Of a DNA stretch of 64,000 nucleotides, positions 604-27,568 are shown piece by piece. Each line of letters opens with the position of its first letter. Positions within the stretch are counted from its first letter, which is position 1. The notes beneath the pieces were generated by a model. It was given only the letters and a program-made list of their open reading frames with translations, did no database searches and was not told the DNA's origin. The stretch is from assembly GCF_900537085.1 (NCBI RefSeq), contig NZ_UNRE01000007.1:183654-247653 (forward strand). The letters are read 5' to 3'. A program made the position numbers and the translations under genes. The DNA comes from Agarivorans sp. Alg241-V36 (GTDB lineage: Bacteria > Pseudomonadota > Gammaproteobacteria > Enterobacterales > Celerinatantimonadaceae).

Positions 604-652
604 AAAGAAGTCCTCTTTATGTCAACCTATTTCCGGACGGGACAAAGTACTA

Positions 653-689
653 ATAAAAAGGCCGCTTCTAAAAGCGGCCTTTATTATTT
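653..689. terminator. Bidirectional rho-independent terminator
   Basis: Stem AAAGGCCGC / GCGGCCTTT with a short loop (TTCTAAAA), flanked by A- and T-rich tracts on both sides. It sits just downstream of the minus-strand gene ending at 718 and beside the IS end, so it most likely ends the SnoaL-like transcript. Confidence 0.8.
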
Positions 690-717
690 CAATTTCTAAT
701 GTGAGAACAAGCCCAAG

Positions 718-11387: not shown

Positions 11388-11405
11388 TTGCATTCCTTAG
11401 CTTAG

Positions 11406-12449: not shown

Positions 12450-12689
12450 CCCTCAATCCTTTTAGCTACATTTTATTAACATTCACTAGCTAAGCAGAGT
12501 TTGAGTAAATATTCTAAAAAGATGTTTTTGCTTTGTGAGCCATCCTGCAAGAAATCGGCTGCACAAAGCCAAGCCGCATAATAAATCGCTAAATAAGAGC
12601 ACCTATCTAGAATTTATATTCAAGATAGACACAAAACAAAGACCAAAAACCCACAATAATGTGACAATGAAAACATTTTCAACCATTAA

Positions 12690-12705
12690 TGTGACGCAGA
12701 TCACC
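12690..12705. promoter_or_regulatory. CRP-like site 1 upstream of the MFS transporter
   Basis: TGTGA-N6-TCACC matches nine of ten bases of the consensus TGTGA-N6-TCACA. It lies 118 nt before the transporter start. Confidence 0.55.
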
Positions 12706-12712
12706 GAAATTT

Positions 12713-12728
12713 TGTGGATTAAATCACC
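12713..12728. promoter_or_regulatory. CRP-like site 2 upstream of the MFS transporter
   Basis: TGTGG-N6-TCACC matches eight of ten consensus bases, 23 bp from the first site. It is weaker than site 1. Confidence 0.4.
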
Positions 12729-12807
12729 TTTTGTGTTCACAATCTCGGCAACTTTCAAACCATCTGGTTAGACCAGATAAACACTCCTTTCTCCATCAGG
12801 TAAGTTC

Positions 12808-14166
12808 ATGAATACAAACAAACCAAAACTGCACTTTTGGCAAATCTGGAACATGAGTTTCGGTTTCCTAGGGATTCAATTTGGCTTCGGTTTACAAAAT
12901 GCCAACGTAAGCCGAATCTTTGAAACCCTAGGCGCTAGCATCGATCAAATCCCAATTTTGTGGCTAGCTGCGCCAGTAACTGGATTACTTATTCAGCCGA
13001 TTATTGGCTACATGAGTGACAGAACATGGAATGGTTTAGGTCGTCGTCGCCCCTACTTTTTAGCGGGCGCGATCATGTCTTCTCTAGCATTAATCATTAT
13101 GCCTAACTCGCCTTATCTTTGGATGGCAGCAGGCATGTTGTGGATACTAGATGCCTCGATTAACGTTTCAATGGAACCATTTCGCGCGCTAGTTGCTGAT
13201 AATCTTCCGTCAGAACAGCGTACTCAAGGCTTTGCAGTGCAAACCTTCTTTATTGGTGTAGGTTCGGTAATTGCGTCTGCTATGCCGTATGTGCTGGCAA
13301 ACTGGTTCGGCATTGCCAACACCGCACCTGAAGGTGTTATTCCGCCGTCGGTTAAAATCTCATTTTATGCTGGTGCCGTGGTATTTTTTGGCGCTGTTTT
13401 ATGGACAGTACTAAAAACTAAAGAATACAGCCCAGAAGAAATGGAGCGCTTTGAGGGTGCAGAGCCAGAACAGGACCAAGAAACAAGCGAAGGTTTTGCA
13501 GAAGTGTGGGCCGATGTGAAGAAAATGCCTACAACCATGCGCCAATTAGCGGTTGTACAGTTCTTCTCTTGGTTTGCCTTATTTGCCATGTGGATTTATA
13601 CCACCTCTGCGGTAACCAGCAGCGTGTACGGCGCAACCGATACGTCTTCAGCTTTATATAACGAAGGTGCCGATTGGGTAGGTTTATGTTTTGCTATGTA
13701 TAACGGTGTTAGTGCTCTAGCCGCGTTTGCCTTGCCATGGTTAGCCGCACGTAGCAGCCGTAAAGTTGTACACGCACTGTGCTTAACCCTAGGTGGAGTG
13801 AGCCTTGCAGGTATGTACTTCATTAATGACCCAAAAATGTTAATGCTTAACATGGTAGGTATTGGTTTCGCTTGGGCGAGTATTTTATGTATGCCTTACG
13901 CCATTTTAGCTGGATCTTTGCCAAGCAAAAAAATGGGCTTCTTCATGGGTGTATTTAACTTCTTCATTGTTATTCCACAAATTTTAGCGGCCGGTATCCT
14001 AGGTTACTTCACCCGCGAATTCTTTGGTGGTGACTCAATGATGGCTTTAGTATTGGGCGGCGCTTCTATGGTAATTGCCGCACTGGTTACACTAACCGTA
14101 ACCGACCGTGACGACCCACAGTTAGCCAACCAAGACGCTGAGTTAACGCAAACGCAAACCGCATAA
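12808..14166 (+). CDS. MFS sugar transporter (GPH/SLC45-like)
   Basis: 452 residues with about 12 membrane segments. It begins HFWQIWNMSFGFLGIQFGFG, with the MFS A-loop as GYMSDRTWNGLGRRRPY, features of the sugar:cation symporters annotated as SLC45 or MalT-like (maltose, sucrose or related oligosaccharides) in marine gammaproteobacteria. The substrate is not determined. There is no adjacent glycosidase or LacI regulator, so it is not in an obvious utilisation locus. Two CRP-like sites upstream suggest catabolite control. An AGGTAAG site precedes the ATG, and a strong terminator follows. Confidence 0.85.
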   Translation: MNTNKPKLHFWQIWNMSFGFLGIQFGFGLQNANVSRIFETLGASIDQIPILWLAAPVTGLLIQPIIGYMSDRTWNGLGRRRPYFLAGAIMSSLALIIMPNSPYLWMAAGMLWILDASINVSMEPFRALVADNLPSEQRTQGFAVQTFFIGVGSVIASAMPYVLANWFGIANTAPEGVIPPSVKISFYAGAVVFFGAVLWTVLKTKEYSPEEMERFEGAEPEQDQETSEGFAEVWADVKKMPTTMRQLAVVQFFSWFALFAMWIYTTSAVTSSVYGATDTSSALYNEGADWVGLCFAMYNGVSALAAFALPWLAARSSRKVVHALCLTLGGVSLAGMYFINDPKMLMLNMVGIGFAWASILCMPYAILAGSLPSKKMGFFMGVFNFFIVIPQILAAGILGYFTREFFGGDSMMALVLGGASMVIAALVTLTVTDRDDPQLANQDAELTQTQTA

Positions 14167-14181
14167 ATTAGTGGCAGATCT

Positions 14182-14213
14182 AAAAAAGGGTGAGCTAAGG
14201 CTCGCCTTTTTTA
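14182..14213 (+). terminator. Rho-independent terminator of the MFS transporter
   Basis: Stem GGTGAGC / GCTCGCC (one G-T pair) with a TAAG loop, flanked by six A and six T, 16 nt past the stop codon. Confidence 0.85.
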
Positions 14214-14295
14214 TTGGGAAAACTCAGCCAAAATAGATCTAAAAGTAGCGCTGTTACGTTATATAAGGTGAACCCTTAATCAAGGAGCGAGCATC

Positions 14296-14490
14296 ATGAA
14301 CCACCATGTTTTCAAAGTAGGTATGCGCTGTATTTACGACAACGGCGAAGCCCTCGTTGACACCTTAGACGACAAAAACAATGTAGCGCTAGTTCGCGAC
14401 CAACATACCGGTAATCTACATACCCGCGCCTACAATGACCTCTATCCCGATGATGACCAGTTTCACAGCGAAAGCGATACTTACTACTAA
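14296..14490 (+). CDS. Small hypothetical protein (64 aa)
   Basis: 64 residues, acidic C-terminus (YPDDDQFHSESDTYY). The first 45 residues (VGMRCIYDNGEALVDTLDD then NVALVRDQHTG) look like a small beta-barrel, but I do not recognise a family. It is supported as a real gene by an AAGGAG site 10 nt before the ATG and by its own downstream terminator. Probably cytoplasmic. Confidence 0.65.
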   Translation: MNHHVFKVGMRCIYDNGEALVDTLDDKNNVALVRDQHTGNLHTRAYNDLYPDDDQFHSESDTYY

Positions 14491-14511
14491 GCCAGTAAGT
14501 AAAAACAAAAC

Positions 14512-14536
14512 AGCGCCCAACAAGGCGCTTTTTTTT
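14512..14536 (+). terminator. Rho-independent terminator
   Basis: GCGCC-CAACAA-GGCGC stem-loop followed by eight T, just after the small hypothetical gene. Confidence 0.85.
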
Positions 14537-14613
14537 GATAATAAGCGCAGACTAAACATAGTAAACAACGGTATATTGCTGGAATAACTAAATTTTTTTG
14601 AGTGTTCCGCAAA

Positions 14614-15009
14614 ATGATGCAACCAAGTGCTTATCCCATCGTAGACAATCTACTATTTTCTGAGATTCGCCCCAGCACCATTCACGGCGATGGTTTATTT
14701 GCCACCAACAGCATTAATGCCAATAGCATATTGGGAATTCTCGACGGACAGTTAGTACCGTGGGATGAGCAATTTTCCACAGCATTTGAATGGAATGCGA
14801 TAAGCGAAAGCCAATTGCTTATTCGCCCTTTGCGCACTAAATACAGCTACATAAACCATAGCCGTACACCTAATTTACAACTTGAATACCACCCTCTGCG
14901 AGTCACCGCCCTTAAGGATATTAAAGCTGGCGAGGAGCTCACCCTAGACTATCGTAAAGAACCTTTACCGAAAACTTACCAACAAGGCCACGGTAGCGGC
15001 TATTTGTAG
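14614..15009 (+). CDS. SET-domain protein
   Basis: About 131 residues, essentially a bare SET domain. The N-terminal part is SEIRPSTIHGDGLFAT (the family's G-x-G-x-F/Y-A turn); NHSRTPN and GEELTLDY match the paired NHxxxPN and GEEL-x-x-DY motifs that form the S-adenosylmethionine and lysine pseudoknot. Such small bacterial SET proteins are presumed lysine methyltransferases with unknown targets. I prefer the ATG at 14614 or 14617 over an upstream GTG; no strong ribosome-binding site decides it. It ends 32 nt before the next gene, so the two may be co-transcribed. Confidence 0.8.
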   Translation: MMQPSAYPIVDNLLFSEIRPSTIHGDGLFATNSINANSILGILDGQLVPWDEQFSTAFEWNAISESQLLIRPLRTKYSYINHSRTPNLQLEYHPLRVTALKDIKAGEELTLDYRKEPLPKTYQQGHGSGYL

Positions 15010-15041
15010 TACCTTCATTTTACAAGGATAAGTAGTAGCGT

Positions 15042-16541
15042 ATGCGCGACCACATCGACTTTTATTGTTATCAACCCCTGCTTATACATGATGAGCATTG
15101 GATCAACTTCCTATCTAAAATCAATCGAGTAGCTCGTAAAAACCAAGGGGCCAGTACCCTGCGTTCAAGCAACTGGTCAAGCATGAGTGAGCACCTTACT
15201 CAACAAGGCATTAGCAATAACGACCATTGGCTAAGTAGCTATACCAAAGAAACTCAAGGGCAATTTCTCGACTTGCTGGTTTGTAACCTCAGCCAACAAC
15301 AAAACATTAATTTGCTACAAAAAGATCTAGTGACTTACCACCAAGATCAATCGGAAGTATTTCAATACTACAACCTAGATCCCGACCATAGCTCAATGAA
15401 GTTGATGTTAGTAAACCGCAGTGTATTTATGTTGGTATTTCACATTCGCTTACAACGAAAAGCTGATAAAACGCCACCAGCAGAGCTACTTAAATCAGTC
15501 CCCTTTGCCCTACGTGCAATGGTGGAAGACCAGCGGAATGGCAGTTGGAACCAGCATGCCAGAGAAACAGCCATACGAAATACTCAAATGGCCGTTGCAA
15601 AGCTAACAGGGCAGTCTTCCAAACTGGCGAGTGTAAGTATTAAACCGCATACCGGCCATGTATTGGTTGATTTTGGCAGTGAAGTAAACGAAAGCGAAAA
15701 AGCGGTGGTAAAGCAAATCCACGAGCAGGAAGAGATTAACTTCAACATCGCTTCTGAGATTGACCTAATTAACGACCACCCAGGCTCATTTGCCCATTTC
15801 GGTTGGAGTTATTCCACGGTTTACGGATTGCCAAAAGAAAAATCCACCATGTGTTTACCCTTTATGCTGTATCTGCAAGCTTGCTGGTTCTTGGCGGGCT
15901 TTTTTAAAGAGTATCTATTGGACTCGATGATTAAGCTGTCTGATGACCTAAGTAGCAACGAGTTAAAGAAACAGTCTCGCCAGTTTGATTCCTTAGTAAT
16001 GGCACATGAGATTTCACTGATCAAACACTCTCAATACAAAGGTGCGCTAAAACCATGGCAGTTTGATGCCTTTGAATGGGTGGAAAGATACTGGCAATTA
16101 GGCGAAACCTTTGAGCAGCTAAAAAGCTCAATGGCCACCAATAAAGAATTTGTTGAGCGCAAAATATCTTACAATATTCAAAACATTGAACAGCGCCAAT
16201 CCTTCATTCTATTTGTGATAACGCTGATTCAGATGCTCACTATTGTAAGCTTCTTTAAAGACTATTTTGACCTGTTGGATTCAACCAACTTGCCCAATAA
16301 GTTTTCCTTTGTAGAAAACGAAACCTTCGACGTGTTTAACCTATATCTACCGCTGTTTTTAGTCGGCATTAACCTCTGTTTTATTACCTATATTTATCGT
16401 CGTTTATTAGCAGAAAAATGGCGGGAGTTTCGCGAAGCATTCCAACCAAAACGCTTAATAGCTTGGTTCAAAACAAAGGGAAATAAAACCCGGCAACAGC
16501 AAGAAGCATCAAGGTTTAATCAGTTAGAAAACGACGCGTAA
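15042..16541 (+). CDS. Unknown membrane protein with a C-terminal two-helix membrane anchor
   Basis: 499 residues; family not recognised. A long soluble N-terminal part (1-265) is followed by a hydrophobic stretch (about 269-290), a helical region ending in NKEFVERKISYNIQNIEQRQ, then two clear membrane segments (about 386-407 and 430-452) and a basic tail. The coiled helix leading into a C-terminal hairpin recalls CorA-type topology, but I see no GMN motif, so I do not call it a transporter. It lies 32 nt after the SET gene in the same direction. Confidence 0.6.
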   Translation: MRDHIDFYCYQPLLIHDEHWINFLSKINRVARKNQGASTLRSSNWSSMSEHLTQQGISNNDHWLSSYTKETQGQFLDLLVCNLSQQQNINLLQKDLVTYHQDQSEVFQYYNLDPDHSSMKLMLVNRSVFMLVFHIRLQRKADKTPPAELLKSVPFALRAMVEDQRNGSWNQHARETAIRNTQMAVAKLTGQSSKLASVSIKPHTGHVLVDFGSEVNESEKAVVKQIHEQEEINFNIASEIDLINDHPGSFAHFGWSYSTVYGLPKEKSTMCLPFMLYLQACWFLAGFFKEYLLDSMIKLSDDLSSNELKKQSRQFDSLVMAHEISLIKHSQYKGALKPWQFDAFEWVERYWQLGETFEQLKSSMATNKEFVERKISYNIQNIEQRQSFILFVITLIQMLTIVSFFKDYFDLLDSTNLPNKFSFVENETFDVFNLYLPLFLVGINLCFITYIYRRLLAEKWREFREAFQPKRLIAWFKTKGNKTRQQQEASRFNQLENDA

Positions 16542-16551
16542 ATACTAAAAA

Positions 16552-16573
16552 GCCAGGCTTATCCGAGTCTGGC
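16552..16573 (+). terminator. Weak stem-loop after the unknown membrane protein
   Basis: 8-bp stem GCCAGGCT / AGTCTGGC with one G-T pair and a 6-nt loop, 11 nt past the stop. No U tract follows, so it is at best a weak terminator. Confidence 0.4.
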
Positions 16574-16710
16574 CCGCCTTCAAGAAAAGCCTTTCAAGCA
16601 TTACGACCAATTAATTAACCAGTAAAAATATTATAAAAACAAGAAAACCCTTTCAGTCACACCACTAATAATATTCATATAAATTAACCCAAATGAGTGA
16701 CGAACACCTA

Positions 16711-16740
16711 TTGATCCAAATATAAATAAAGAAATATCAT
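16711..16740 (+). promoter_or_regulatory. Candidate sigma-70 promoter of the peptide operon
   Basis: TTGATC (16711-16716) and TATCAT (16735-16740) with an 18-nt spacer, in a very AT-rich leader about 65 nt before the precursor gene. This is a match by eye only; other AT-rich hexamers in 16600-16800 could serve. Confidence 0.35.
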
Positions 16741-16806
16741 CCCTTCGCATTTTAATGCAAAAGCCCTATTAATTTAGGAAACAAATATTTGGATTAGGAA
16801 AATCTA

Positions 16807-17040
16807 ATGGACTTAAATAAGGAACAAGAATTTCTATTGAATGGAATTCAAGAGCTAACAGAAGATGAAATGATTTCAATTGCTGGTGGCTACGGAGAGC
16901 CTACAACGCCAGGGACAGGTACTGGTGTTGACGATACTGTATATGAAGACGTGTGGGTTTCAAATCCTTACGGTCCTGGTGGCTCTTGGGTGTCCCGCCC
17001 AGTTAACAATGGCGGTGGCGGCACTAGCTATGGTGGCTAA
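16807..17040 (+). CDS. Double-glycine-leader precursor peptide (RiPP/bacteriocin-like)
   Basis: 77 residues. Residues 1-28 form a leader ending ELTEDEMISIAGG; counted back from the cut it has Leu-12, Glu-8, Met-7, Ile-4, Gly-2 and Gly-1, the pattern recognised by C39 peptidases. The 49-residue core (29-77) starts YGEPTTPGTGTG and ends GGGGTSYGG. It is acidic, has 13 Gly, no Cys and no Lys, and holds two WVS-x-P units (VWVSNP and SWVSRP). The absence of Cys excludes lanthionine, sactipeptide and S-linked glycocin chemistry; Ser/Thr O-glycosylation, C-mannosyl-like Trp sugar, or Trp crosslinking by the radical SAM enzyme remain possible. An AGGA site sits 7-8 nt before the ATG. It is the first gene of a tight operon with an exporter carrying a C39 peptidase. 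Confidence 0.85.
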   Translation: MDLNKEQEFLLNGIQELTEDEMISIAGGYGEPTTPGTGTGVDDTVYEDVWVSNPYGPGGSWVSRPVNNGGGGTSYGG

Positions 17041-17055
17041 GCCTTAGCACTAGCT

Positions 17056-17084
17056 AAACTCGGCTAGCCTAACTAGCCGAGTTT
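17056..17084 (+). terminator. Intercistronic stem-loop after the precursor gene (attenuator/stabiliser)
   Basis: Perfect 12-bp stem (AAACTCGGCTAG and its complement) with a CCTAA loop, followed only by a mixed AT tract. It lies between the precursor gene and the first glycosyltransferase. This position and moderate strength fit partial termination or 3'-end protection, which would raise precursor levels over enzyme levels. Confidence 0.7.
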
Positions 17085-17104
17085 ACAAATTTTGTTTATT
17101 GAAT

Positions 17105-19339
17105 ATGGATTTTACTATGCCTCGCCTTTTATACATTTGGGAATACGGTTCTGACTTGGGCCACATTAACAGCTTTCTACCTATAGCAAAAAAACTCTGT
17201 GAGCTAAATTGGGAGCTCATATTTGCCATTCCTGAACACGTAGCAGGCATTGCAGCAGCTAAAATTGAAATACAGCGCTTAGGGGCTCAATGCATTTCCA
17301 CGCCTGGCTCTTCGATAATAGGTTCAGACAGTTTAAAGAGCAGTTGTCATGTTGATATGTTACGCCAATTGACAGGCTTAAGAGATGAGCAGGAGTTTGG
17401 TTTCTACCTCGATTCATGGCTTAGTACCCTTAAAAGAGAAAAACCAGACTTAGTATTATGTGATTACTCAATTATTGGTTTGATTGCCGCAAATAGCTTA
17501 AGTATTCCTTCCGTTTTGCTAGATCAAGGTTGGTTTGTACCTGATTTGAATGCTACTCAAGCAAAACAGCCATTTCATAAACTTCTTTCAGGTGCTGCTT
17601 CTGTTGAAAATCATATAGACGACCCTGATATTGTTCAGAAAGAAAATGAACTACTAGATATAATGAATCGCCAATTAAGTGCCCGTAACCTTACTAACTT
17701 AAAGCATTTTATTGACATTTATCGTTGCGACGAACTTATTCTTAATAATTTCCCAGAGCTTTCATCTTTAGAACATCAAAAAGTAAATAATTTCATTGGA
17801 AGTTTTAAACAAGAAAGCCATAATTCCTCAGTTGAATGGCCCAATCCAGAACTATCTAAACCCAATATATTTGTTTACTTAAAAAGAAATACACCAGTAC
17901 TAGAATACGTTCTATCTAGCTTAGCCAGCAATGAAAGTTACAACGTTATTGCCTATATTCCAGGGGTAAACCCAGCATTTATTAAACGTTATCAACGAGA
18001 CCATATGGTGTTTAGCAATAAGGCTGTTAACCTACCTGAGCTGCTAGATACGACAAATTTAGTAATATCAAATGCGGGGGTAGGTTTAATTAATCAAAGT
18101 TTATTGGCAGGCATACCAATGATTATGCTACCACAGTGGACAGAACAACAATTTAATGCGAAACGTGTTCAGCAACTATATGCCGGTGAAGTGATAACTT
18201 ACTACTATTCCGAAAAAGAAGTTGCCGCCACCATTGAACGAGTTCTTGGCAATCAAATCTATTTAGCTAAAGCACGAGAGTTTAAATTAAATCATAAACC
18301 CGCTGAAATTACCGAAGTTGTAAGCAAAATAACTTCTCTCGTACCAAGCACCCTAGAAAATAGTAGAGAGTCACTAAATGCCAGCAACCACTTCGTTAGC
18401 CTGAGTGAACTAGATTGGTTTTACTTAATTGACACGGATATTGCAGCCGATGAAACTTGGCAACAAATTCAACAATTTGTACCTCACGCTAAAGCTATCT
18501 TCTATAAAGACTTTTGGTCAGGTATAGACAACGCTGCTAAACAAGCATCAACAGAACGCTTCATCACCATTAAACAGGGATGTAAGCTCGACCCATATTT
18601 GTTTATTGCAGAAGCGGAGTATCCTACAGGCCAACAACATGCTCACTGGTATTGGAACAAGCTAGATAAGTTTACAGGTCTAGTATTTGGCTCGTCTGAT
18701 GTTACCTGTTGGAATACGCGAGCAGCAAAGGCACAAACGTTTGCTAATCTCGGTTACTCGAACAACCCTGTAGAGATGCATACCTTTCTGCGTCGCCCTG
18801 AGTTTAGCCCCTTCGCTAAAGTGCTGAGCCAATCTAGCCAAGTTAGCAATGCAGAAGCTGCTTTTTATCAAGGCTATAGAACAACATTAAAAATGATAGA
18901 TGCCTTTTCTGGAGATATCGCTCGAATCATTCAATACCCCTCGTCAATGTTAGTGAGAAGACTATTTATTCACATGTCAGCTGAATATAGCAGTCAAAAC
19001 CCAGCCTATTACGCAATAGGAGCCAGGTTGGCTTTTGTTAATCAGTTCATACGGTTTAAGAAAGGTTTTGACTTGATCACTCCTGCAACAACCGAACAGT
19101 TTATTAGCGACGCTTTAGAGTATGCCAAGCTAAAACTCGACTCGCCGTTACAGTTAAATCAAGAACAATTGATTGAGCTTTCTACATATCTAGGTGACAA
19201 AATACGCGCCGCACATCAGCGTCCACCTCTTTTAGATATGGATCAAGACTCTGCAAGCAATTTTAAGAAAACTCTAATGGCTAATCGAGCAGATGATCAT
19301 CACTTGTTTAGCCCGTCATCAATAACTGCGGCTTTATAA
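17105..19339 (+). CDS. Two-domain glycosyltransferase A (GT1-like plus GT-A-like)
   Basis: About 744 residues. Domain 1 (about 5-410) looks like a GT-B UDP-glycosyltransferase: N-terminal LLYIWEYGSDLGHINSFLPI, and a nucleotide-sugar side ISNAGVGLINQSLLAGIPMI then PQWTEQQFNAKRV. Domain 2 (from about 435) matches the C-terminal half of the paralogue at 24615, a GT-A-like domain. Here the acidic motif is lost: VDAD of the paralogue aligns with IKQG (K490 to G492 from this ATG). Domain 2 may therefore be inactive or act in binding. The ATG at 17105 or 17117 and an upstream TTG are all possible starts; none has a strong Shine-Dalgarno. The stop overlaps the next start by one base (TAATG), implying translational coupling. 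Likely role: sugar transfer to the exported peptide (inference). Confidence 0.75.
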   Translation: MDFTMPRLLYIWEYGSDLGHINSFLPIAKKLCELNWELIFAIPEHVAGIAAAKIEIQRLGAQCISTPGSSIIGSDSLKSSCHVDMLRQLTGLRDEQEFGFYLDSWLSTLKREKPDLVLCDYSIIGLIAANSLSIPSVLLDQGWFVPDLNATQAKQPFHKLLSGAASVENHIDDPDIVQKENELLDIMNRQLSARNLTNLKHFIDIYRCDELILNNFPELSSLEHQKVNNFIGSFKQESHNSSVEWPNPELSKPNIFVYLKRNTPVLEYVLSSLASNESYNVIAYIPGVNPAFIKRYQRDHMVFSNKAVNLPELLDTTNLVISNAGVGLINQSLLAGIPMIMLPQWTEQQFNAKRVQQLYAGEVITYYYSEKEVAATIERVLGNQIYLAKAREFKLNHKPAEITEVVSKITSLVPSTLENSRESLNASNHFVSLSELDWFYLIDTDIAADETWQQIQQFVPHAKAIFYKDFWSGIDNAAKQASTERFITIKQGCKLDPYLFIAEAEYPTGQQHAHWYWNKLDKFTGLVFGSSDVTCWNTRAAKAQTFANLGYSNNPVEMHTFLRRPEFSPFAKVLSQSSQVSNAEAAFYQGYRTTLKMIDAFSGDIARIIQYPSSMLVRRLFIHMSAEYSSQNPAYYAIGARLAFVNQFIRFKKGFDLITPATTEQFISDALEYAKLKLDSPLQLNQEQLIELSTYLGDKIRAAHQRPPLLDMDQDSASNFKKTLMANRADDHHLFSPSSITAAL

Positions 19340-20580
19340 TGGCGGACGAAAAGTCTAAAGAAAACGGGTTATTAGCCAGTTCAGAGTCACTTGGTGAGCC
19401 TTTAGAAATAACGCCTTTAGGCTCCAAAGCGGCCATTTGGCTAATGTGCGCGATTGCTGTCACAGTCATTATCCTAATGTTCAATGCTGATTTTAAGCGA
19501 AAAGTAACATTAGTTGGAATGGTCAACTCTGTGGCTGGACAGTTTAATGTCTATCCGCTTAAAAGTGGTTATGTCACCCAGTCTTGGGTGACAGAGCAAA
19601 TGGAAGTAGCCAAAGGGCAACGCTTATTCGAAGTTACTGCTGAGGTGCACACCAAAAGTGGAGATTCAATTGCAGAATTGAAGAACAAGATACTAACCAG
19701 TATTGAAAGCCTAAAACTGGAAATAAGCCGCTCCACAGAAATATACAACAGCGAATTTAGAGAGCTAAACCAGCTTGCTGTTTTTCTCGAAAACCAACAG
19801 CAAGAGTTAGATAACCAGCTTCAGTTGCAGCAAGACGTAGCCAACATGTTACTGGGCTTAGTTAAAGGCCAACGAGAGCTAGTCGACAAAAAGTTCATAA
19901 GTGCCAGCCAAATGCAAACCAAGGAGCAAGAATATGCTCGCGCACTTACCGACTTATCCGAGCTCAAATATAGCAAAATAGCGATGCTAAAAGAGCGTCG
20001 TAGCGTGGCTGAAAACCTTTCATCCATTACCCTCAAACATGAAAATGACATAGCGCGTATTGAACGGGAGATATCAAGTTATCAACAAAAACTATTTGAG
20101 CTTGAAATTCAAAACGAAAAAATTGTTATTGCTCCTGAAAATGGCGTCATTACTGCACTGTCAATAAACGCAGGAGAAAGCGTGCAATCAGACACATTGG
20201 CAATGGTAATCATTCCCTTAAATGTGAAATGGCATGTTGAGGTCTACGCCACTAGTACCGACGTAGGTTTTATTAGAGCAGGAAACCCAGCCAAGCTTCG
20301 TTACGCCGCTTATCCATATCAACGTTTTGGTCTATATGGCGGTTCAGTCAAGCATGTTTCTAAAGCCGCTATAAAAGGCTCTTCAATCGACTCCAGACTC
20401 CCTGCATCAGAATACTTTTATAAAGTAACCGTTGAGCTAGATGAGCAATGTATTTTGGCTTACGGAAAGTGCGAACCCCTACAAGCGGGTATGGGTGTAA
20501 CGGCCAGTATAGAAACCGAGCGTAGAACTCTAATTGAATGGGCGCTAGATCCACTTTACACCATCAAAGGGAAGCTTTAA
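19339..20580 (+). CDS. HlyD/CvaA-type membrane fusion (periplasmic adaptor) protein
   Basis: 413 residues. A short cytoplasmic tail, one membrane segment (about 31-49) and a periplasmic part. Lipoyl-like halves (YPLKSGYVTQSWVTEQMEVAKGQ, written in two parts as YPLKSGYVTQ and EQMEVAKGQ; and APENGVITALSINAGESV) flank a long coiled coil (about 115-265), followed by a beta-barrel (VEVYATSTDVGFIRAGNPA). It would link the inner-membrane ABC exporter to a TolC-like outer-membrane channel, which is not encoded here. It sits directly between glycosyltransferase A (1-nt overlap) and the exporter (6-nt gap), as in colicin V-type systems. Confidence 0.9.
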   Translation: MADEKSKENGLLASSESLGEPLEITPLGSKAAIWLMCAIAVTVIILMFNADFKRKVTLVGMVNSVAGQFNVYPLKSGYVTQSWVTEQMEVAKGQRLFEVTAEVHTKSGDSIAELKNKILTSIESLKLEISRSTEIYNSEFRELNQLAVFLENQQQELDNQLQLQQDVANMLLGLVKGQRELVDKKFISASQMQTKEQEYARALTDLSELKYSKIAMLKERRSVAENLSSITLKHENDIARIEREISSYQQKLFELEIQNEKIVIAPENGVITALSINAGESVQSDTLAMVIIPLNVKWHVEVYATSTDVGFIRAGNPAKLRYAAYPYQRFGLYGGSVKHVSKAAIKGSSIDSRLPASEYFYKVTVELDEQCILAYGKCEPLQAGMGVTASIETERRTLIEWALDPLYTIKGKL

Positions 20581-20586
20581 GCCACA

Positions 20587-22659
20587 ATGAATATATCTAG
20601 TTTATCCAATTCTAAGCTTCCAGTTGTACGCCAAACTACCATGTCGGAATGCGGCTTAGCGTGTCTTGCAATGATCGCAGGCTATCACGGTAAAGATATT
20701 GACCTTTATACTATTAGATCTCGATTTGCCACTTCGTTACGAGGAATGAACTTTGTTGATTTACGTAACGTGGCGGACAAACTTGGCTTTGCATCACGCG
20801 GTGTCAGAGTTGACTTACAAAGCCTTCACAAACTTCAAAAGCCCTGCATTCTTCACTGGAAAAACATGCATTTCGTGGTGCTTAAAAAGGTTCATCGCAA
20901 GTACATCATTATTCACGACCCCTCCTCTGGGGTAGTAAAAGTACCAATGAAGGAAGTAGAAGAAAGCTTTCAAGGTTATGCCATGGAGCTTTCTTCTACG
21001 GTAGAGTTTGAGAAGGGGAAAGAGCGCGACAAGCCTTCGATGTTCTTACTGTTTAAAGGCATGGTGGACGTAAAACAAGGGCTTGTTTATATCTTCCTCA
21101 TCTCCTTAGCCTTAGAGCTTTTTGTTAACTTATTACCCTTGTATACCCAATGGGTTATCGATGATGTTGTCACAACTGCTGATTACGATTTACTCACTAT
21201 CCTGTTTATTGGCTATATTTTTGTCATCTTATTTCAAGCAGCAATTGGAGTACTTCGCTCTTGGGTAATGCTTCGATTTGGCATAATAATCAATGCCAAT
21301 ATCCAAACTCGGGTATTTACTCACTTACTTAAGCTACCTTGCTCATTCTTCGAGCAAAGATACATCGGTGACGTGGTTTCTCGATATCACTCTCTAAACG
21401 CTGTTCAAGGGGCTTTAACCACCAGCTTTGTGTCTTCAGTACTCGATGGAATCATGTGTATTTTTGTTGGCACTATCATTTTCATCTATAGCAAAATGCT
21501 CGCGTCTATTGCGCTTGGGTTTGTCGTTCTATACGGCATTATTCGCTGGTTACGCTACTTACCTTTTAAAACTGCAGTGCGAGAACAACTCGTCGCAAGA
21601 GCTCTACTAGACAGCCACTTTCTAGAAACCATCCGCGGTGTTCGCGGAATCAAACTGTTTAATAAACAAGGCGTGCGCCGTGACCAATGGTATAGAAACC
21701 TATACGACACCTATAACAAAGACGTAGATATAGCAATTTTGAACCTAAAATATGGGCAGATAGGTGCCATCATTTCAGGTTTTGAGAGAGGTTTAGTTAT
21801 TTATTTAGGCGCTCAACTGGTGATTGAAGGCTCAATGACTGTGGGCTTTTTATTAGCATTTTTGGCCTATAAAGATCAGTTTGTTGGCCGGATGAACGGA
21901 CTGATCGAGAAAGCTGTAGCACTTGGTATGGTGCAGCTTGAGGTGGAACGCCTTTGGGACATCATGGGAACAGCTCCTGAAGAAGAGCCCCAGCTACCCT
22001 ACATAGGTGAAAACGACATTACTCCCAACATTGAACTTAAAGACGTTAGCTTTCGCTATTCCGATTACGAACCTTACATAATCAACAGCTTTAACCAAAG
22101 AATATTAGCTGGGGAACATGTTGTTATTGTTGGTCCTTCTGGGTCAGGGAAAAGTACTATCGCCAAATTGATTTCAGGCGTACAGCAACCTGGAGAGGGG
22201 GAAATTCTGATTGGTGGAGTGCCTTTAACAAACTTAGGTTCAGAGGCTAGGAAACTGATTAGCTGTGTAATGCAAGATGATGAGCTGTATTCAGGAACCT
22301 TGCTAGAAAACATCTCCTTTTTTGATTCCGAACCAGATATGGATCGCATTGAAGAATGCACCAAGCTAGCGGAAATGCATCAAGAAATAATTGCCATGAA
22401 GATGGGCTACAACTCCATTATTGGTGATATGGGTTCAGCACTTTCTGGGGGACAAAAGCAACGTATTTTGTTAGCCAGAGCCATGTACGCTCAACCTAAA
22501 ATATTAGTCTTGGATGAATCTACAAGCGCCCTAGATGTCGAGCTAGAAAAACGTATCAATGAAAACATCAAACGTTTAGATATCACCAGAATCACTATCG
22601 CACACCGGCCCCAAACCATTGCTGCCGCAGACAGAAAAATAGAAATCTCAGCCAATTAA
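20587..22659 (+). CDS. ABC exporter with N-terminal C39 peptidase domain
   Basis: 690 residues; processes and exports double-glycine-leader peptides through the inner membrane. The C39 domain (about 10-135) keeps its catalytic set: Gln16 (oxyanion), Cys22 in SECGLACLAM, His95 in NMHFVVL and Asp111 in HDPSSG. A six-helix transmembrane domain spans about 155-440. The ATPase domain has Walker A GPSGSGKST (about 516), signature LSGGQ (about 619), Walker B ILVLDEST and the switch histidine (TIAHRP). This supports cleavage of the upstream precursor after its Gly-Gly. The nearest functional analogue is CvaB-type export. The stop is 14 nt before the next gene. Confidence 0.95.
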   Translation: MNISSLSNSKLPVVRQTTMSECGLACLAMIAGYHGKDIDLYTIRSRFATSLRGMNFVDLRNVADKLGFASRGVRVDLQSLHKLQKPCILHWKNMHFVVLKKVHRKYIIIHDPSSGVVKVPMKEVEESFQGYAMELSSTVEFEKGKERDKPSMFLLFKGMVDVKQGLVYIFLISLALELFVNLLPLYTQWVIDDVVTTADYDLLTILFIGYIFVILFQAAIGVLRSWVMLRFGIIINANIQTRVFTHLLKLPCSFFEQRYIGDVVSRYHSLNAVQGALTTSFVSSVLDGIMCIFVGTIIFIYSKMLASIALGFVVLYGIIRWLRYLPFKTAVREQLVARALLDSHFLETIRGVRGIKLFNKQGVRRDQWYRNLYDTYNKDVDIAILNLKYGQIGAIISGFERGLVIYLGAQLVIEGSMTVGFLLAFLAYKDQFVGRMNGLIEKAVALGMVQLEVERLWDIMGTAPEEEPQLPYIGENDITPNIELKDVSFRYSDYEPYIINSFNQRILAGEHVVIVGPSGSGKSTIAKLISGVQQPGEGEILIGGVPLTNLGSEARKLISCVMQDDELYSGTLLENISFFDSEPDMDRIEECTKLAEMHQEIIAMKMGYNSIIGDMGSALSGGQKQRILLARAMYAQPKILVLDESTSALDVELEKRINENIKRLDITRITIAHRPQTIAAADRKIEISAN

Positions 22660-22673
22660 TAGGAAGGAACCTT

Positions 22674-23363
22674 ATGTCAGTATGCGCTGTTTTATTGAGC
22701 TACAAACGTCCACAAAACATGGACAAGATCATTCGCAGAATTTTAGATTCAAAATACATAGACAAAATTGTACTAAGTAACAATAACCCTGAGGTATGCA
22801 TCGAAGAATGGTTAAACTTGGATGACTATGAAGTAGAAATCATCAATCAACCTATTCCTACGTTGTACACCATGCGTTGGCAAGTTGCCTCTGAGCAACA
22901 ACATGATTTCTTTTTCTGCCCAGATGATGATTTATATTTAACCGGTTCGCAAATCGACCAGTTAATTGAGGAGCTATTCGCCAACCCTTCTGTTCCTCAT
23001 GGAGTGGTGGGCCAACTTAAGTGCTATCGAAATGGCCAACCATTTCTAGACTCAGATGTTGGACGAGTAAATTGTGAAATCGACATTCTAAATAGAACGT
23101 ACTTTTTCACTAAACAACAAGTTTTACGCACTCTAGAGTTAGCCAAAGAACTAGGCTACGAAGATATAAACTCCACCAGATTTATGGATGATGTGCTACT
23201 GAGCTTTTCAGGAGATAGCCGTCCAATCATCCACCACGTAGGAGACCTCGATAGCTGTGAAACTTCCGTGCAAAAAGGTGTGGCTACTTGGCGGGAAGAT
23301 AACTTCATAGATACCCGTGTTGAAGGCTACATGAAACTTCAGGCAATCACTGGCAGAAACTAA
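22674..23363 (+). CDS. EXT/GT64-like glycosyltransferase
   Basis: 229 residues. It starts CAVLLSYKRPQNMDKIIRRI, then IDKIVLSNNNPE and a DDD motif (D84-D86 in CPDDDLYL), typical of the GT-A fold with a metal-binding DxD. The C-terminal part RFMDDVLLSF and DLDSCETSVQKG resembles the GT64 (exostosin-like) end. It would add a sugar from a nucleotide donor; the acceptor is unknown, plausibly the peptide or a sugar already on it. A GGAAGGA site precedes the ATG. No membrane segment, so cytoplasmic. It lies within the operon, between the exporter and the radical SAM gene. Confidence 0.7.
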   Translation: MSVCAVLLSYKRPQNMDKIIRRILDSKYIDKIVLSNNNPEVCIEEWLNLDDYEVEIINQPIPTLYTMRWQVASEQQHDFFFCPDDDLYLTGSQIDQLIEELFANPSVPHGVVGQLKCYRNGQPFLDSDVGRVNCEIDILNRTYFFTKQQVLRTLELAKELGYEDINSTRFMDDVLLSFSGDSRPIIHHVGDLDSCETSVQKGVATWREDNFIDTRVEGYMKLQAITGRN

Positions 23364-23380
23364 ACATTAAGGAAATCAAA

Positions 23381-24610
23381 GTGGCTTCTAATTGTATTTG
23401 CCCGCTCCCGTGGAATCATGCTTACGTAGAAATGAACGGTGATGTAAAACTCTGCTGTGTAGCGCAACCGGCCCTGAAGGAGCGTAACCTAATAGATACC
23501 CCAGTGAGCGAATTTGTTGATTCTCGCTATATGGCACACATTAGAAAACAAATGCTAATGGGAATGTGGCCCGTAGAGTGTGGTGGCTGCAAAAAAGCTG
23601 AGCTCTTGGGCTTAGAGTCTCACCGGACAGGTATCATCAATAGAGATCCTCAAAGCTATCAGCAACTTACCAAAGATCCTAGTGAAGACAAGGTTAAACT
23701 GAGCAGCCTAGATTTACGAATTTCTAACGAATGCAATTTTAAATGCCGCTCTTGCTCAGTAAGCTTCTCTAACGCTTGGCGAGATGACTTTCAAGCTATC
23801 TACCCTAATAACATTAGCGTTGAAGATTTAACGAAAAATCGCGCTATTCAAGGTATTGAAGGTAACACTTCATTTTGGGATCAACTTGATGAACGTCAAC
23901 TTGGCGACATAAAGGAGTGGCATTTTGCTGGGGGAGAAGCTCTCTTATCTGATAAGCACTATCAATTACTAGAAAAGCTAATATCGATAAAAGCCTTTGA
24001 TAGCAAAATAACTTACACCACAAACTTCAGTATTATTCAATATAAGCACTGGAACATTCTTGAAATGCTCAAGCCATTCCATAATGTAGTTTTTCATCTC
24101 AGCTTAGACGGTGCTGGGGAAAAAGGAGAGTACATAAGAAAAGGGCTAAATTGGAAGCGCTGGTTAAAGAACTTACGCTTATTACGAAAAAGCCTCCCTA
24201 AGGCTAAGCTAGATATTCATTTTGTTGTATCAATACTCAACATTTTGGATCTTCAATGGCATATCCAACAGATAGAAGATGTGAATGAGTTTCGAGATCC
24301 CGCAACCAAGCAACTCAATGTTGGATTTACATGCTTAGATAGGCCTTCACACCTGAGCATTCAAGTTCTTTCTCCTGAGTTAAAGAAAAAAGCGAAACAG
24401 CGTTTAGTGGCTATCTCAGAGCATCAAGCCACAGCTAAAAACATCCGTGAGGCAATGGTCGGAATTATAAACTTCTTAGACCAAAAAGACCTTCATCAGC
24501 AGCAGTTTAGAGAATTTTTACGCACCACTACTATTCTAGACCAACGCCGTAAAGAAGATTACAGACGCCTATTCCCCGAACTGGCTGAAATGGAATTAAC
24601 CAAGGTTTAA
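23381..24610 (+). CDS. Radical SAM protein with N-terminal twitch/SPASM-like Cys cluster
   Basis: 409 residues. The radical SAM core carries C118-x3-C122-x2-C125 (CNFKCRSC), which binds the SAM-cleaving [4Fe-4S] cluster, followed by HFAGGEALL (GGE motif). Unusually, a second Cys set lies before the core: Cys7, Cys25/26, and Cys67-x2-Cys70 (with PLPWNHAYVEMNGDVKLCC), matching the N-terminal twitch type of radical SAM proteins and probably holding an auxiliary cluster. The chemistry is not predictable; within this operon it could act on the peptide or on a sugar. Start is GTG at 23381 with AAGGAAAT 4-11 nt upstream. It lies 4 nt before glycosyltransferase B. Confidence 0.85.
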   Translation: MASNCICPLPWNHAYVEMNGDVKLCCVAQPALKERNLIDTPVSEFVDSRYMAHIRKQMLMGMWPVECGGCKKAELLGLESHRTGIINRDPQSYQQLTKDPSEDKVKLSSLDLRISNECNFKCRSCSVSFSNAWRDDFQAIYPNNISVEDLTKNRAIQGIEGNTSFWDQLDERQLGDIKEWHFAGGEALLSDKHYQLLEKLISIKAFDSKITYTTNFSIIQYKHWNILEMLKPFHNVVFHLSLDGAGEKGEYIRKGLNWKRWLKNLRLLRKSLPKAKLDIHFVVSILNILDLQWHIQQIEDVNEFRDPATKQLNVGFTCLDRPSHLSIQVLSPELKKKAKQRLVAISEHQATAKNIREAMVGIINFLDQKDLHQQQFREFLRTTTILDQRRKEDYRRLFPELAEMELTKV

Positions 24611-24614
24611 TCAC

Positions 24615-26864
24615 ATGATGCAAAGTGCAAAAATAATATGGGAATACGGAACGGGGATAGGCCAAATCAACACCCTGATACCAGTCGCCCAAAACCTCAA
24701 AAATAGAGGATGGAAAGTTGAGTTCATCGTTCCGTCAATTAAGGCATATATCAAAGATATTGAAAAGCTACTCGACACAAACCGTCTCAATTACAGCAGG
24801 TGTCCAGGCTCTCCTACTTTAGTAAAGAACATACAGGGAAATAGCCATGCTTCATCACTATTAGGTTTAAGCGGCTTACAAGACTGTAGCGCTTTTACTT
24901 TTACCCTTCGGTCATGGCTAAGTGTATTGGATGAAGATAAACCCAGCTTAGTAATTACCTCCTCCTCTATTGGCGGATTAATGGCAGCAAAACTACTCGC
25001 CATTCCAACTGTAAATATAGAGCATGGGTTCTTTAGTCCTGAGAGCTCAGGCAACTTACCGCATTTTTTGGAACAACTTCCCAATCATAAACGCACGTCG
25101 GTTAATCATGAAACAGAAGTCAAAGCTGAGAAAAAGCTACTCAATATAATAAACAATGCTCTGCTCAAACTAGCAGCCAAGCCAGTCGATTGCCTGCAAC
25201 AAGTATTCGAAGCCAACAAAACCTTATGGCTAAACTACCGACAACTAAACCCTATTAAACATCTTCACCAATCGGACTTTTTGGGTAAACCATTAACAAG
25301 CAATGGTGGAATAAAGGCCCAGTGGCCCAACTCAAACAACCGCCAAATAAAGGTGTTTGTTTACTTATACGCAAACACACCTAGAGCAAACCAAATTCTT
25401 GAGGCATTAGTGGCTGACCCTTCGTTAAATGCTTTGGTGCATATGCTTGGCCTTAGCCGCAACTACGCACAGCATTTTACTCGAGAACACATATCTATCA
25501 GCCACGTTCCTTTCGATATTGAAGATGTGCTAAACCAGGCTGATATAGTTATTTGCCATGGCGGGAGCAATTTGGTGGCAGAATCAATGTTAAAAGGTAA
25601 GCCCTTGCTGCTAGAACCAACAAATTTTCTGCAACTTCTGAATACACATCGGGCAGTAGAGCAAGGCGCAGCTCTGCAACTGCCAGAAACTCTCAATATG
25701 AACCTTATTCAAAGTTATGTAAAAAAAGTAGCTAAGAGTGAATTCCACCAAGTTCAAGCGAGACAATTTAGCTGTAAACACCAAGCCTTAGATATAGATG
25801 AAATCGTAGACCAAATTGAAACGATACCAATGAGTAGTCAACCCCCTCATTGGATTGAAAAACTTGAGTTACAGCGGCCAGCTAAACTGGCCCATTTTGC
25901 TGATTATGATGTGGTATTTCTCTCTTATGATGAGCCTAATGCCGATACTAATTGGGAACAGCTTAAAAAAATCGTTCCAAAGGCAAAACGAGTACACGGT
26001 GTAAAAGGGTTTGATGCTGCGCACAAAGCAGCCGGACAAGCCGCAGAAACGGAGCGTTTTATTCTTGTTGATGCTGACAACCAAATTGATCCCGACTTTC
26101 TAAAAATTAGCATTCATGTTCCTGCTCATTTAGAACACTCAGTATGGCAATGGTGTAGCATTAATCATGTCACTGGTCTTGTTTATGCCTTTGGTGGTGT
26201 GAAAATTTGGACCAAAGAAGTTATCGAAGAAATGCGAACCCACGAAAATTGTGAAGATAATAGTAATCCTTTAGCAATTGATTTCTGGAATCAACCTTCC
26301 TACCAAGTTTTCCATAGTGTTCACTCGATCAATTATACCAACGGTTCACCGTTTCAAGCTTTTCGTTCTGGATTTAGAGAAACAGTTAAGTTAGGTAGGT
26401 TAAATGGAAACATAAAAACTCTAGAGCAATTACAAAGACAGGCCAATAACCCAGAAATACGCCGTATGGCAGTATGGATGTCAGCGGGTGCCGATATCGA
26501 AAATGGCTACTGGTCATTACTTGGAGCGAGGGCAGGCTTTCTATCCTATTTTAGCGATGAATTTTCTTTCAAAATCATCAACGAATACCAACTTGTTGCT
26601 GACGTATGGCAAAGCATTATTAGCGATATGTTGACTGACGAGGAGCTAAAGAAAACAAACAATGGCAAAAACCAATGTGTAATAGATAAGCCAGCACTGC
26701 GAGTGAAAGTTCAGGAAATGGGCGACAAGATACGCTCTATGATATCTCAGCCTCCTGTAATAGATATGTCAGCAACAGACTCCATTAAATTCAAGCAAGC
26801 AATGAAAAATAACATCAAACCAACAGAGCTATTCACACCTGTATTTTCTTCTAGAGAACTTTAA
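24615..26864 (+). CDS. Two-domain glycosyltransferase B (GT1-like plus intact GT-A-like)
   Basis: 749 residues, a full-length paralogue of glycosyltransferase A (both begin IWEYG-x-x-x-G-x-IN and share GDKIR and QPP/RPP near the C-terminus). Domain 1 keeps a donor-site HGG (ICHGGSNLVAESMLKGKPLL). Domain 2 (from about 425) reads DVVFLSYDEPNADTNWEQL, RVHGVKGFDAAHKAAG and ERFILVDADNQIDPDF. D486 and D488 form a DxD-like metal site. I recall this second domain type from phage and bacterial glycosyltransferases, without a named function. So it could transfer two sugars or make a disaccharide. It is the last gene of the operon, ended by a strong terminator. MMQS gives two adjacent possible ATG starts. 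Confidence 0.75.
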   Translation: MMQSAKIIWEYGTGIGQINTLIPVAQNLKNRGWKVEFIVPSIKAYIKDIEKLLDTNRLNYSRCPGSPTLVKNIQGNSHASSLLGLSGLQDCSAFTFTLRSWLSVLDEDKPSLVITSSSIGGLMAAKLLAIPTVNIEHGFFSPESSGNLPHFLEQLPNHKRTSVNHETEVKAEKKLLNIINNALLKLAAKPVDCLQQVFEANKTLWLNYRQLNPIKHLHQSDFLGKPLTSNGGIKAQWPNSNNRQIKVFVYLYANTPRANQILEALVADPSLNALVHMLGLSRNYAQHFTREHISISHVPFDIEDVLNQADIVICHGGSNLVAESMLKGKPLLLEPTNFLQLLNTHRAVEQGAALQLPETLNMNLIQSYVKKVAKSEFHQVQARQFSCKHQALDIDEIVDQIETIPMSSQPPHWIEKLELQRPAKLAHFADYDVVFLSYDEPNADTNWEQLKKIVPKAKRVHGVKGFDAAHKAAGQAAETERFILVDADNQIDPDFLKISIHVPAHLEHSVWQWCSINHVTGLVYAFGGVKIWTKEVIEEMRTHENCEDNSNPLAIDFWNQPSYQVFHSVHSINYTNGSPFQAFRSGFRETVKLGRLNGNIKTLEQLQRQANNPEIRRMAVWMSAGADIENGYWSLLGARAGFLSYFSDEFSFKIINEYQLVADVWQSIISDMLTDEELKKTNNGKNQCVIDKPALRVKVQEMGDKIRSMISQPPVIDMSATDSIKFKQAMKNNIKPTELFTPVFSSREL

Positions 26865-26895
26865 TTGGACACCAATAAATCCAAAAACATACTTT

Positions 26896-26920
26896 AAGCC
26901 GAGCTTAGCTCGGCTTTTTT
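26896..26920. terminator. Strong terminator closing the peptide operon
   Basis: Perfect 9-bp stem AAGCCGAGC / GCTCGGCTT with a TTA loop and a T run. It lies 31 nt after the glycosyltransferase B stop and 13 nt from the end of the convergent DUF1456 gene, so it may serve both. Confidence 0.9.
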
Positions 26921-26933
26921 CTTTGATAAAGGC

Positions 26934-27431
26934 TTATTCTTCATCCCACTCAAAGTCGGGTGCTTCGTCTGGGTTGGCGCGATATTTAAGCTGCATGCCA
27001 TGCAAGAAGTTACGCATGATTTGATCTTTACATACACGGTAATGCTTATGATCTGGCTTGCGGAAAAAAGCACTTAGCTCATGCTTGCTCAATTGAAAAC
27101 CGGTTAGGCCCAATACCTCTAACATGTCTTCTGCTTTGAGGTTTAACGCAATTTTTAGCTTCATCAAAATAAGGTTATTGTTTAGGCGCTTTTCTGGCTC
27201 AGGCTGCGGGCCTTCACGTTTGCCGCGTTTTTCGTTGATTAAGCCGTTAAGAAAAATCGCTAGGGTTCTATCGTTAAGATTGCGATAAGCAGCGTCATCA
27301 TCTTTCTTCAACCAATCGCTCACTTCGGCACGGCTCACTGTTAGTTCAGCTTGCGCAAAAATGGCAATCATCTTGTTGTCGTTAAAGTTAAAGCAATAGC
27401 GAAGACGACGAAGAATATCGTTATTAGTCAT
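26934..27431 (-). CDS. DUF1456 family protein (YehS-like)
   Basis: 165 residues, soluble. Two copies of the DUF1456 helical unit: NNDILRRLRYCFNFNDNKM (about 3-70) and NNNLILMKLKIALNLKAEDM (about 84-150), each followed by an S-x-x-E-x-S-x-F/W-type motif (SRAEVSDWL and SKHELSAFF). E. coli YehS has the same layout. The function of the family is unknown. Confidence 0.85.
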   Translation of the reverse strand: MTNNDILRRLRYCFNFNDNKMIAIFAQAELTVSRAEVSDWLKKDDDAAYRNLNDRTLAIFLNGLINEKRGKREGPQPEPEKRLNNNLILMKLKIALNLKAEDMLEVLGLTGFQLSKHELSAFFRKPDHKHYRVCKDQIMRNFLHGMQLKYRANPDEAPDFEWDEE

Positions 27432-27568
27432 GGATTAGTCCCAAGTAAAATAAAACCCACAGCCAAGAGGCTGAAAAACCAGCAGGATTCTACGCTATCC
27501 AGCACCAAGTAGATAGCGCCCTAGCCGCTTATTTATTGAGCGTAGTCAAAGGAGAAAGCTTAAGCGAA

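Follow-up and report, generated by a model that had tools for sequence, protein, structure and literature searches.

What does a bacterium make with a small double-glycine peptide, three glycosyltransferase proteins, a radical S-adenosylmethionine (SAM) enzyme and a peptide exporter encoded in one tight gene row? The question is raised by positions 16807-26864 of a 64,000-nucleotide stretch of Agarivorans sp. Alg241-V36 (contig NZ_UNRE01000007.1), the whole of which is termed the window below. The seven co-directional genes described there by a first-pass annotation are all present on the + strand, in the order it gave. They probably constitute a horizontally acquired glycopeptide operon, in which a peptide would be glycosylated by two paralogous glycosyltransferases (GT1 and GT2) and a GT64-like enzyme and exported via a C39-type transporter, and the product could belong to a new type of glycopeptide from bacteria. 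The features are as follows.

16555..26895, + strand: inserted block, consisting of the operon and its leader region, absent from the sister genome G055 (blastn)
16807..17040, + strand: precursor peptide of 77 amino acids, with a C39-type leader ending LTEDEMISIAGG and a 49-residue core (YGEPTT...TSYGG)
17055..17085, + strand: 13-bp hairpin at the precursor/enzyme-gene boundary, from the fold of 17030-17110
17117..19339, + strand: GT1, a GT-B domain followed by a C-terminal GT-A-like domain; GT-B His16, Asp116 and Glu343 present, GT-A-like domain degenerate (DxD changed to K..G)
19339..20580, + strand: HlyD-type periplasmic adaptor (Pfam, 1.1e-9)
20587..22659, + strand: C39-peptidase ABC exporter with peptidase, membrane and ATPase domains (Pfam)
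22674..23363, + strand: GT64-like GT-A glycosyltransferase with a CPDDD motif, assigned by fold match and 42% identical to its counterpart in the Paraburkholderia locus L031 (see below)
23381..24610, + strand: N-twitch radical SAM enzyme (NF033640), with CxxxCxxC cysteines C118, C122 and C125 and candidate auxiliary-cluster cysteines C7, C26, C67 and C70
24615..26864, + strand: GT2, a GT-B domain followed by a GT-A-like domain; GT-B positions occupied by Gln17, Ser116 and Leu339, GT-A-like DxD intact (D486/D488)
26896..26916, + strand: terminator hairpin closing the operon, also present at the empty site

The seven genes are absent as a block from the sister genome G055, in which the gene preceding the operon (98% protein identity) and the DUF1456 gene following it are adjacent. 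In blastn comparisons, window positions 11215-16554 match positions 1-5346 of the G055 locus L176 (91%) and positions 26896-27551 match 5342-5998 (95%); because these matches abut, 16555-26895 (10.34 kb) is placed as an insertion at a terminator common to both genomes. In four further genomes (G124, G034, G109, G009), the 26896 side lies within 40 nt of sequence matching about 14490-14514 of the window (blastn), so that the operon and the two genes preceding it are missing, and in G163 the matches end earlier, at 14124, about 370 nt before the downstream side. A relative of the GT-A domain is found in none of the six other genomes of the genus. The G+C content of the block is 0.407, that of the left flank 0.439 and that of the right flank 0.453. 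Horizontal acquisition of the operon as a single co-inherited unit is the best explanation, and the co-arrival of seven genes with nothing else recognised makes it likely that they work together.

The first gene encodes a double-glycine precursor with a 49-residue core devoid of Cys, as annotated earlier. The core contains 13 Gly, 6 Thr, 4 Ser, 4 Tyr and 2 Trp residues and includes the motifs WVSNP and WVSRP. The leader carries hydrophobic residues at the two diagnostic positions, Met at -7 and Leu at -12; Leu, Val, Ile or Met occupies these positions in most C39 transporter substrates, according to the available text of PMC12139839. The leader pattern is matched by one of the 253 small open reading frames in the window, the precursor itself, and by one of 155 in L031, whereas the background is 14 of 14,936 in 214 other loci (3/2010, 4/4377, 3/4538 and 4/4011). 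As the pattern was composed with both leaders known, Phe being allowed, the window and L031 match by construction, and the background rate is the informative figure. The absence of Cys sets the core apart from sactipeptides and ranthipeptides, the maturase models of which (NCBIfam) score far under their cut-offs, and from glycocins, which have an S- or O-glycosylated Cys or Ser in a disulfide-bonded core. The earlier exclusion of an S-glycocin on this ground is valid for the window peptide; in the core of L031, four Cys are present.

The annotation of a HlyD adaptor and a C39-peptidase ABC exporter is likewise confirmed by Pfam. The exporter, the only one in the block, matches the C39 peptidase family PF03412 as well as PF00664 and PF00005 (Pfam values for C39 peptidase/ABC exporter, 1.4e-36 and 2e-27); its candidate catalytic residues, read from the sequence, are Cys22 and His95.

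GT1 and GT2 were previously described as paralogous two-domain glycosyltransferases. They are indeed a pair (27% identity), but they are not equivalent, as one of the two domains appears to be dead in either protein. The GT-B halves of both belong to Glyco_tran_28_C (3.6e-8 and 2.5e-8; 34 and 34.5 bits, cut-off 22). For the GT-A-like domain, a comparison with 161 distinct relatives (L031 excluded; 131 from viral contigs, many of them mutually related) points to six residues: both Asp of the DxD motif, one Glu, one Lys and one later Glu are invariant (161/161), as is a Trp (151/151). All six are present in GT2 and L031, and none in GT1. At 17 columns with a conservation of 94% or more, the conserved residue is present 4 times in GT1, 15 times in GT2 and 17 times in L031 (GT1 versus GT2, p 0.0004); 127 of 314 residues in this domain are identical between GT2 and L031, and 69 of 305 between GT1 and L031. 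GT1 thus appears to have lost its GT-A-like active site, a loss that is well supported by these alignments.

The GT-B domain was compared with 17 lone relatives (L031 excluded), in which the His of the GxGH motif is found in 14 of 15 sequences, and an Asp and a Glu in 17 of 17 each. These residues are retained in GT1 and L031, whereas GT2 has Gln, Ser and Leu instead. His and Asp of GT1 are 100 residues apart, a spacing which we take to resemble that of the catalytic dyad of GT1-family transferases; the catalytic role of the three residues is presumed from GT1-type transferases. An apparent loss of the GT-B active site in GT2 is moderately supported. The paralogs therefore look complementary in their residues, GT1 having the GT-B site intact and GT2 the GT-A site, which is a new observation. 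Since L031 retains the residues for both activities in one fused enzyme, the simplest reading is that a bifunctional transferase was duplicated and then split between two proteins.

The C-terminal domain of GT2 has no match among Pfam, NCBIfam or PHROG families. Its model (pLDDT 87.9) gives weak matches in the Protein Data Bank (PDB), the best to HddC (E 4.4e-4, low TM-score) and the next to TarP, RmlT, WrtF and the glycocin enzyme SunS (TM-scores near 0.3); the best viral structure matches are uncharacterised Caudovirales proteins (E 1.3e-12 and 1.1e-11).

A scan of an 84,980-species genome collection with this C-terminal domain, by means of two short patterns that can miss relatives, yielded 35 loci. 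Full-length matches to the GT-B/GT-A fusion occur only in the genome of the window and in that of L031 among the genomes sampled (295 from the order, 369 from the class, 249 from the family of the L031 genome and 378 from the phylum; the samples overlap). L031 is located in a Paraburkholderia metagenome bin (SCRN01000013.1). Its precursor of 126 amino acids has a leader ending ...LSFEEFCLVSGG, with Leu at -12 and Phe at -7 (hydrophobic, but outside the Leu/Val/Ile/Met set of PMC12139839), and a 91-residue core that starts YGGSPTG..., with YG at the start as in the window, and has a Gly/Ser-rich tail. The precursor gene is followed by genes for an outer-membrane channel, a DUF3857/transglutaminase-like protein, a GT64-like protein, a 732-residue fused glycosyltransferase with the same two domains and the residues of both sites intact, and a C39 exporter. 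The channel and the DUF3857 protein have no counterpart in the window operon. Conversely, no N-twitch radical SAM protein scores over the family cut-off in the L031 genome, a bin of unstated completeness (best, 39.5 bits). The exporter aligns with that of the window only up to residue 366; at 11985-12368 of L031, C39 similarity gives way to a reading frame that is similar to an outer-membrane efflux protein (21.6 bits, cut-off 22). The locus is thus damaged or misassembled, through a deletion or an assembly join. By independently repeating the association of precursor, GT64-like enzyme, GT-B/GT-A enzyme and C39 exporter, L031 supports the prediction of a glycosylated, exported peptide.

The designation of the third transferase as GT64-like agrees with its predicted fold but not with a family assignment. 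The model of the 22674..23363 product, which is of low confidence (pLDDT 55), has its best structure matches in EXTL2/EXT GT64 domains (Foldseek E 2.0e-6), whereas the Pfam score to PF09258 is under the curated cut-off (14.8 versus 21.3 bits, E 0.018), and the enzyme is described here as resembling GT64, not filed as a member. Relatives occur in two other genomes among the 369 of the class, within larger open reading frames that contain or lie near methyltransferase-like sequence (judged by eye); the remaining operon parts were not found in the stretches examined around them. No relative was found in plasmid records, and none was confirmed in viral contigs.

The radical SAM enzyme is an N-twitch protein, as annotated: it scores 339.9 bits against N_Twi_rSAM NF033640 (cut-off 170), and its CxxxCxxC and auxiliary-cluster cysteines are conserved in 34 of 34 sequences, one of which is the copy in this genome. 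The family is present in two of 303 class genomes sampled, this one and G309, where the gene adjoins a methyltransferase-like gene (by eye) and no GT-A, GT-B, GT64-like, HlyD or C39 relative lies in the 18 kb around it. In viral contigs, both this family (at least 589 relatives) and the GT-A domain (499, with a four-sequence alignment as query) are common. Among the 80 best-scoring viral loci per query (L066-L145 and L210-L289), which are not a random sample, the radical SAM family is found in 37 of the 80 reached via the GT-A domain, and the GT-A domain in 43 of the 80 reached via the radical SAM enzyme; such loci are often multi-copy, with means of 4.5 radical SAM matches (radical SAM query) and 2.3 GT-A matches (GT-A query). 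C39-type leaders occur in them at background numbers only, and no match to the GT64-like enzyme, the C39 exporter or the GT-B half is present in the 80 GT-A-domain loci. For pelagiphages, the available text of PMC7029224 mentions both glycosyltransferases and radical SAM cassettes. The radical SAM enzyme looks like an add-on to the operon. Two further ideas were rejected: a phage origin of the whole block, given that neither GT2 nor its C-terminal domain has a match in 50,697 phage records (GT2 as a single-sequence query also has none in viral contigs), and a role in defence, as the radical SAM enzyme matches viperin-like proteins only weakly (1e-8 and 0.001), which is read as a superfamily signal.

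The glycopeptide operon may work as follows; we infer the peptide to be the sugar acceptor, as well as the activities and the order of the steps. The leader of the 77-residue precursor would be recognised, and the core, rich in Gly, Thr, Ser and Tyr, would acquire two or more sugars, with one contributed by GT1 through its GT-B site and one by GT2 through its GT-A site, the two proteins perhaps acting as a heterodimer. The GT64-like enzyme would add or extend a further sugar, and the radical SAM enzyme would perform an extra tailoring step on sugar or peptide. The C39 exporter, together with the HlyD adaptor and an outer-membrane channel of the host, would cleave after the double glycine and export the glycopeptide. 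Because no immunity gene is recognised among the seven genes, the product is no more readily seen as a toxin than as a factor in signalling or in surface interaction.

Several observations weigh against this proposal. Neither a leader-binding domain nor an immunity gene is recognised among the seven genes. For the transferase pair, one of the six GT1 changes is a mere Glu-to-Asp exchange, and GT2 itself deviates at two of the 17 conserved GT-A-like columns (N to T and G to A). Over 21 conserved GT-B columns, GT1 keeps 15 and GT2 12, which is no significant overall difference (p 0.52), so that the case for a GT-B loss in GT2 comes down to three residues, and GT1 deviates at 6 of the 21. Only a single relative of the system was found, in a metagenome bin and with an exporter gene that is broken (similarity ends at residue 366), and most radical SAM and GT-A homologues examined have no such precursor nearby.

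The last point is also what would be expected if the peptide were unmodified or merely radical-modified, a class II microcin-like product with its own C39 exporter, while the enzymes built a separate surface or secreted glycan and shared only the transferred block. Many C39-exported peptides are unmodified. This explanation is nevertheless unlikely, since transferases, exporter and precursor are interleaved in a tight operon in which no gap after GT1 exceeds 17 nt, all the genes are missing as one block from G055, L031 shows the same association with different extra genes, and no lipid-carrier transferase, flippase or polymerase is recognised among the seven genes with Pfam and NCBIfam profiles. 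A polysaccharide locus was rejected on the last of these grounds, and also because none of 20 loci with a lone GT-B relative shares the other operon parts and many of the lone GT-B genes adjoin genes for exported-looking proteins. The first-pass annotation had taken homologues in exopolysaccharide loci lacking a precursor gene as a sign that the modification model fails; the single-enzyme homologues examined are mostly without such a precursor, but their loci are not obviously polysaccharide loci.

What the radical SAM enzyme acts on is a separate matter. That the enzyme epimerises, dehydrates or rearranges a sugar, either ahead of its transfer or afterwards, is a tentative possibility that draws on the co-occurrence with the GT-A domain in 37/80 and 43/80 viral loci; however, this association shows no shared substrate, as large phages bundle many unrelated enzymes, and the G309 copy has a methyltransferase-like gene beside it and none of the other operon relatives within 18 kb. 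Aromatic-x-x motifs are used by some radical SAM peptide cyclases, and the WVSNP and WVSRP motifs, together with the complete set of cysteines, would suit a cyclophane or ether link in the core, with sugars secondary. Such action on the peptide is quite unlikely: no PqqD-like or other leader-binding partner is recognised in the operon, peptide-maturase models score far under their cut-offs for this enzyme, its viral relatives accompany a glycosyltransferase-like domain while C39-type precursors are not above background, and the L031 genome has no family member over the cut-off. Of the exported glycopeptide, perhaps with a radical-made crosslink, that was proposed earlier, probable glycosylation and export by one co-inherited unit are supported, and the crosslink is not.

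A bolder scheme is suggested by a human enzyme. EXT1-EXT2, the heparan sulfate polymerase, consists of paralogs in which the GT-B domain is N-terminal and the GT-A domain C-terminal, with one pseudo domain (PMC9675754, available text), i.e., the same layout as in GT1 and GT2, with 34% identity there and 27% here; chondroitin synthase heterodimers are a further parallel (PMC12748766, available text). By analogy, a GT1/GT2 heterodimer with one live site in each protein might alternate two sugars on the ribosomal peptide, the GT64-like and radical SAM enzymes would tailor the chain, and the C39 exporter would release a small proteoglycan-like peptide. This is improbable. Only one of the four EXT domains is called inactive in the available text, whereas GT1 and GT2 seem to have one dead domain each, and the likeness is convergent, an analogy without homology, EXT being absent from the 50 PDB matches listed for the C-terminal domain of GT2.

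Among known systems, glycosylated ribosomal peptides are represented mainly by glycocins of Gram-positive bacteria. Class IIb siderophore microcins (E492 type) also have a double-glycine leader, a C39 exporter, a glycosyltransferase partner and a Gly/Ser-rich C-terminus, but no siderophore or MceIJ-type gene is recognised among the seven window genes, to which the search was limited. In glycocins such as glycocin F, sublancin and thermoglycocin, the leader peptide and the glycosyltransferase are clustered with a C39 exporter, as here; the window operon differs in its Cys-free core, three other transferase proteins, radical SAM enzyme and HlyD adaptor. The thermoglycocin cluster, by the available text of PMC12139839, has these three parts together, with a single O-/S-GlcNAc transferase, a disulfide-bonded core and thioredoxin-like partners. 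The earlier statement that no described system has this gene combination needs qualification, since regions with radical SAM, LanC and peptide S-glycosyltransferase genes were mined from Bacteroidales, and two of nine clusters there (BGC3 and BGC9) include glycosyltransferases, BGC9 with a C39 transporter and BGC3 with none (PMC10352776, available text). These clusters share double-glycine precursors, C39 transporters and, in BGC3/BGC9, glycosyltransferases with the window operon; they belong to a different phylum, and the available text mentions no split GT-B/GT-A pair. The same combination was not recognised in literature titles, abstract openings and the texts cited here. If the proposal is true, a Gram-negative multi-transferase system with a split bifunctional enzyme would be a compact, testable model for paralogous pseudo-enzymes sharing work. 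The operon would also place the N-twitch radical SAM family and an unnamed GT-A domain, which are both frequent in viral contigs, in a cellular context that includes a candidate substrate.

Lone relatives of the GT-B domain occur in 25 genomes (1, 17 and 7 in the order, class and L031-family draws). Twenty of these loci (L190-L209; 5.3 to 20 kb) were examined, and G309 separately (G304, G373, G544 and G643 were left out, and five further genomes from the phylum draw also lie outside the 20). HlyD, C39 ABC, GT64-like and radical SAM relatives are found in none of the 20. By a crude signal-peptide rule, exported-looking proteins are encoded by 21 of 38 adjacent genes and 45 of 159 other genes (p 0.002; three loci are very similar, and the loci are not all independent), which suggests that the lone GT-B relatives are a protein glycosyltransferase family for secreted proteins. 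Some of the exported-looking neighbours are very large.

The operon boundaries show several minor features. The upper end of the intergenic distances annotated earlier, from a 1-nt overlap to 64 nt, depends on the uncertain start of GT1, for which the listed TTG at 17099 and in-frame ATG codons at 17105 and 17117 are options: the overlap is confirmed and 64 nt fits ATG 17105, but with ATG 17117 the gaps are 76, -1, 6, 14, 17 and 4 nt. The 17030-17110 region folds at -26.2 kcal/mol (z -3.93; 0 of 200 shuffles equally stable), and its hairpin is a possible attenuator or RNA-processing site. A promoter scan returned 16 sites, fewer than the 23.7 in shuffled sequence, so no promoter is claimed. 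Just upstream of the block, 14602-16541 encodes a SET-domain protein and a 499-residue protein without a convincing family match; the latter is present in only one of the six other genomes of the genus, so the site varies stepwise.

Other settings of the GT-A domain and the radical SAM family were also seen. In the Rhodobacterales loci L025, L032 and L034, the GT-A domain is accompanied by a protein of 745-749 residues, a caspase-like protein and a GT4-like protein (L032-L034 by eye); in L025 the 745-749-residue protein is weakly GT-B-like and the gene set lies near type VI secretion genes, and in L033 a caspase-like reading frame is also found by the GT-A domain (by eye). On two Streptomyces plasmids (L026 and L027), a glycosyltransferase gene and a GT-A-domain gene, the latter with a hypothetical annotation, overlap by 4 nt, and the pair is near a peptide deformylase gene. 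An island in a Bdellovibrionales bin (L035, 2149-14601) combines two genes with the GT-A domain, one of them recognised by eye, and three that encode N-twitch radical SAM proteins scoring over the cut-off.

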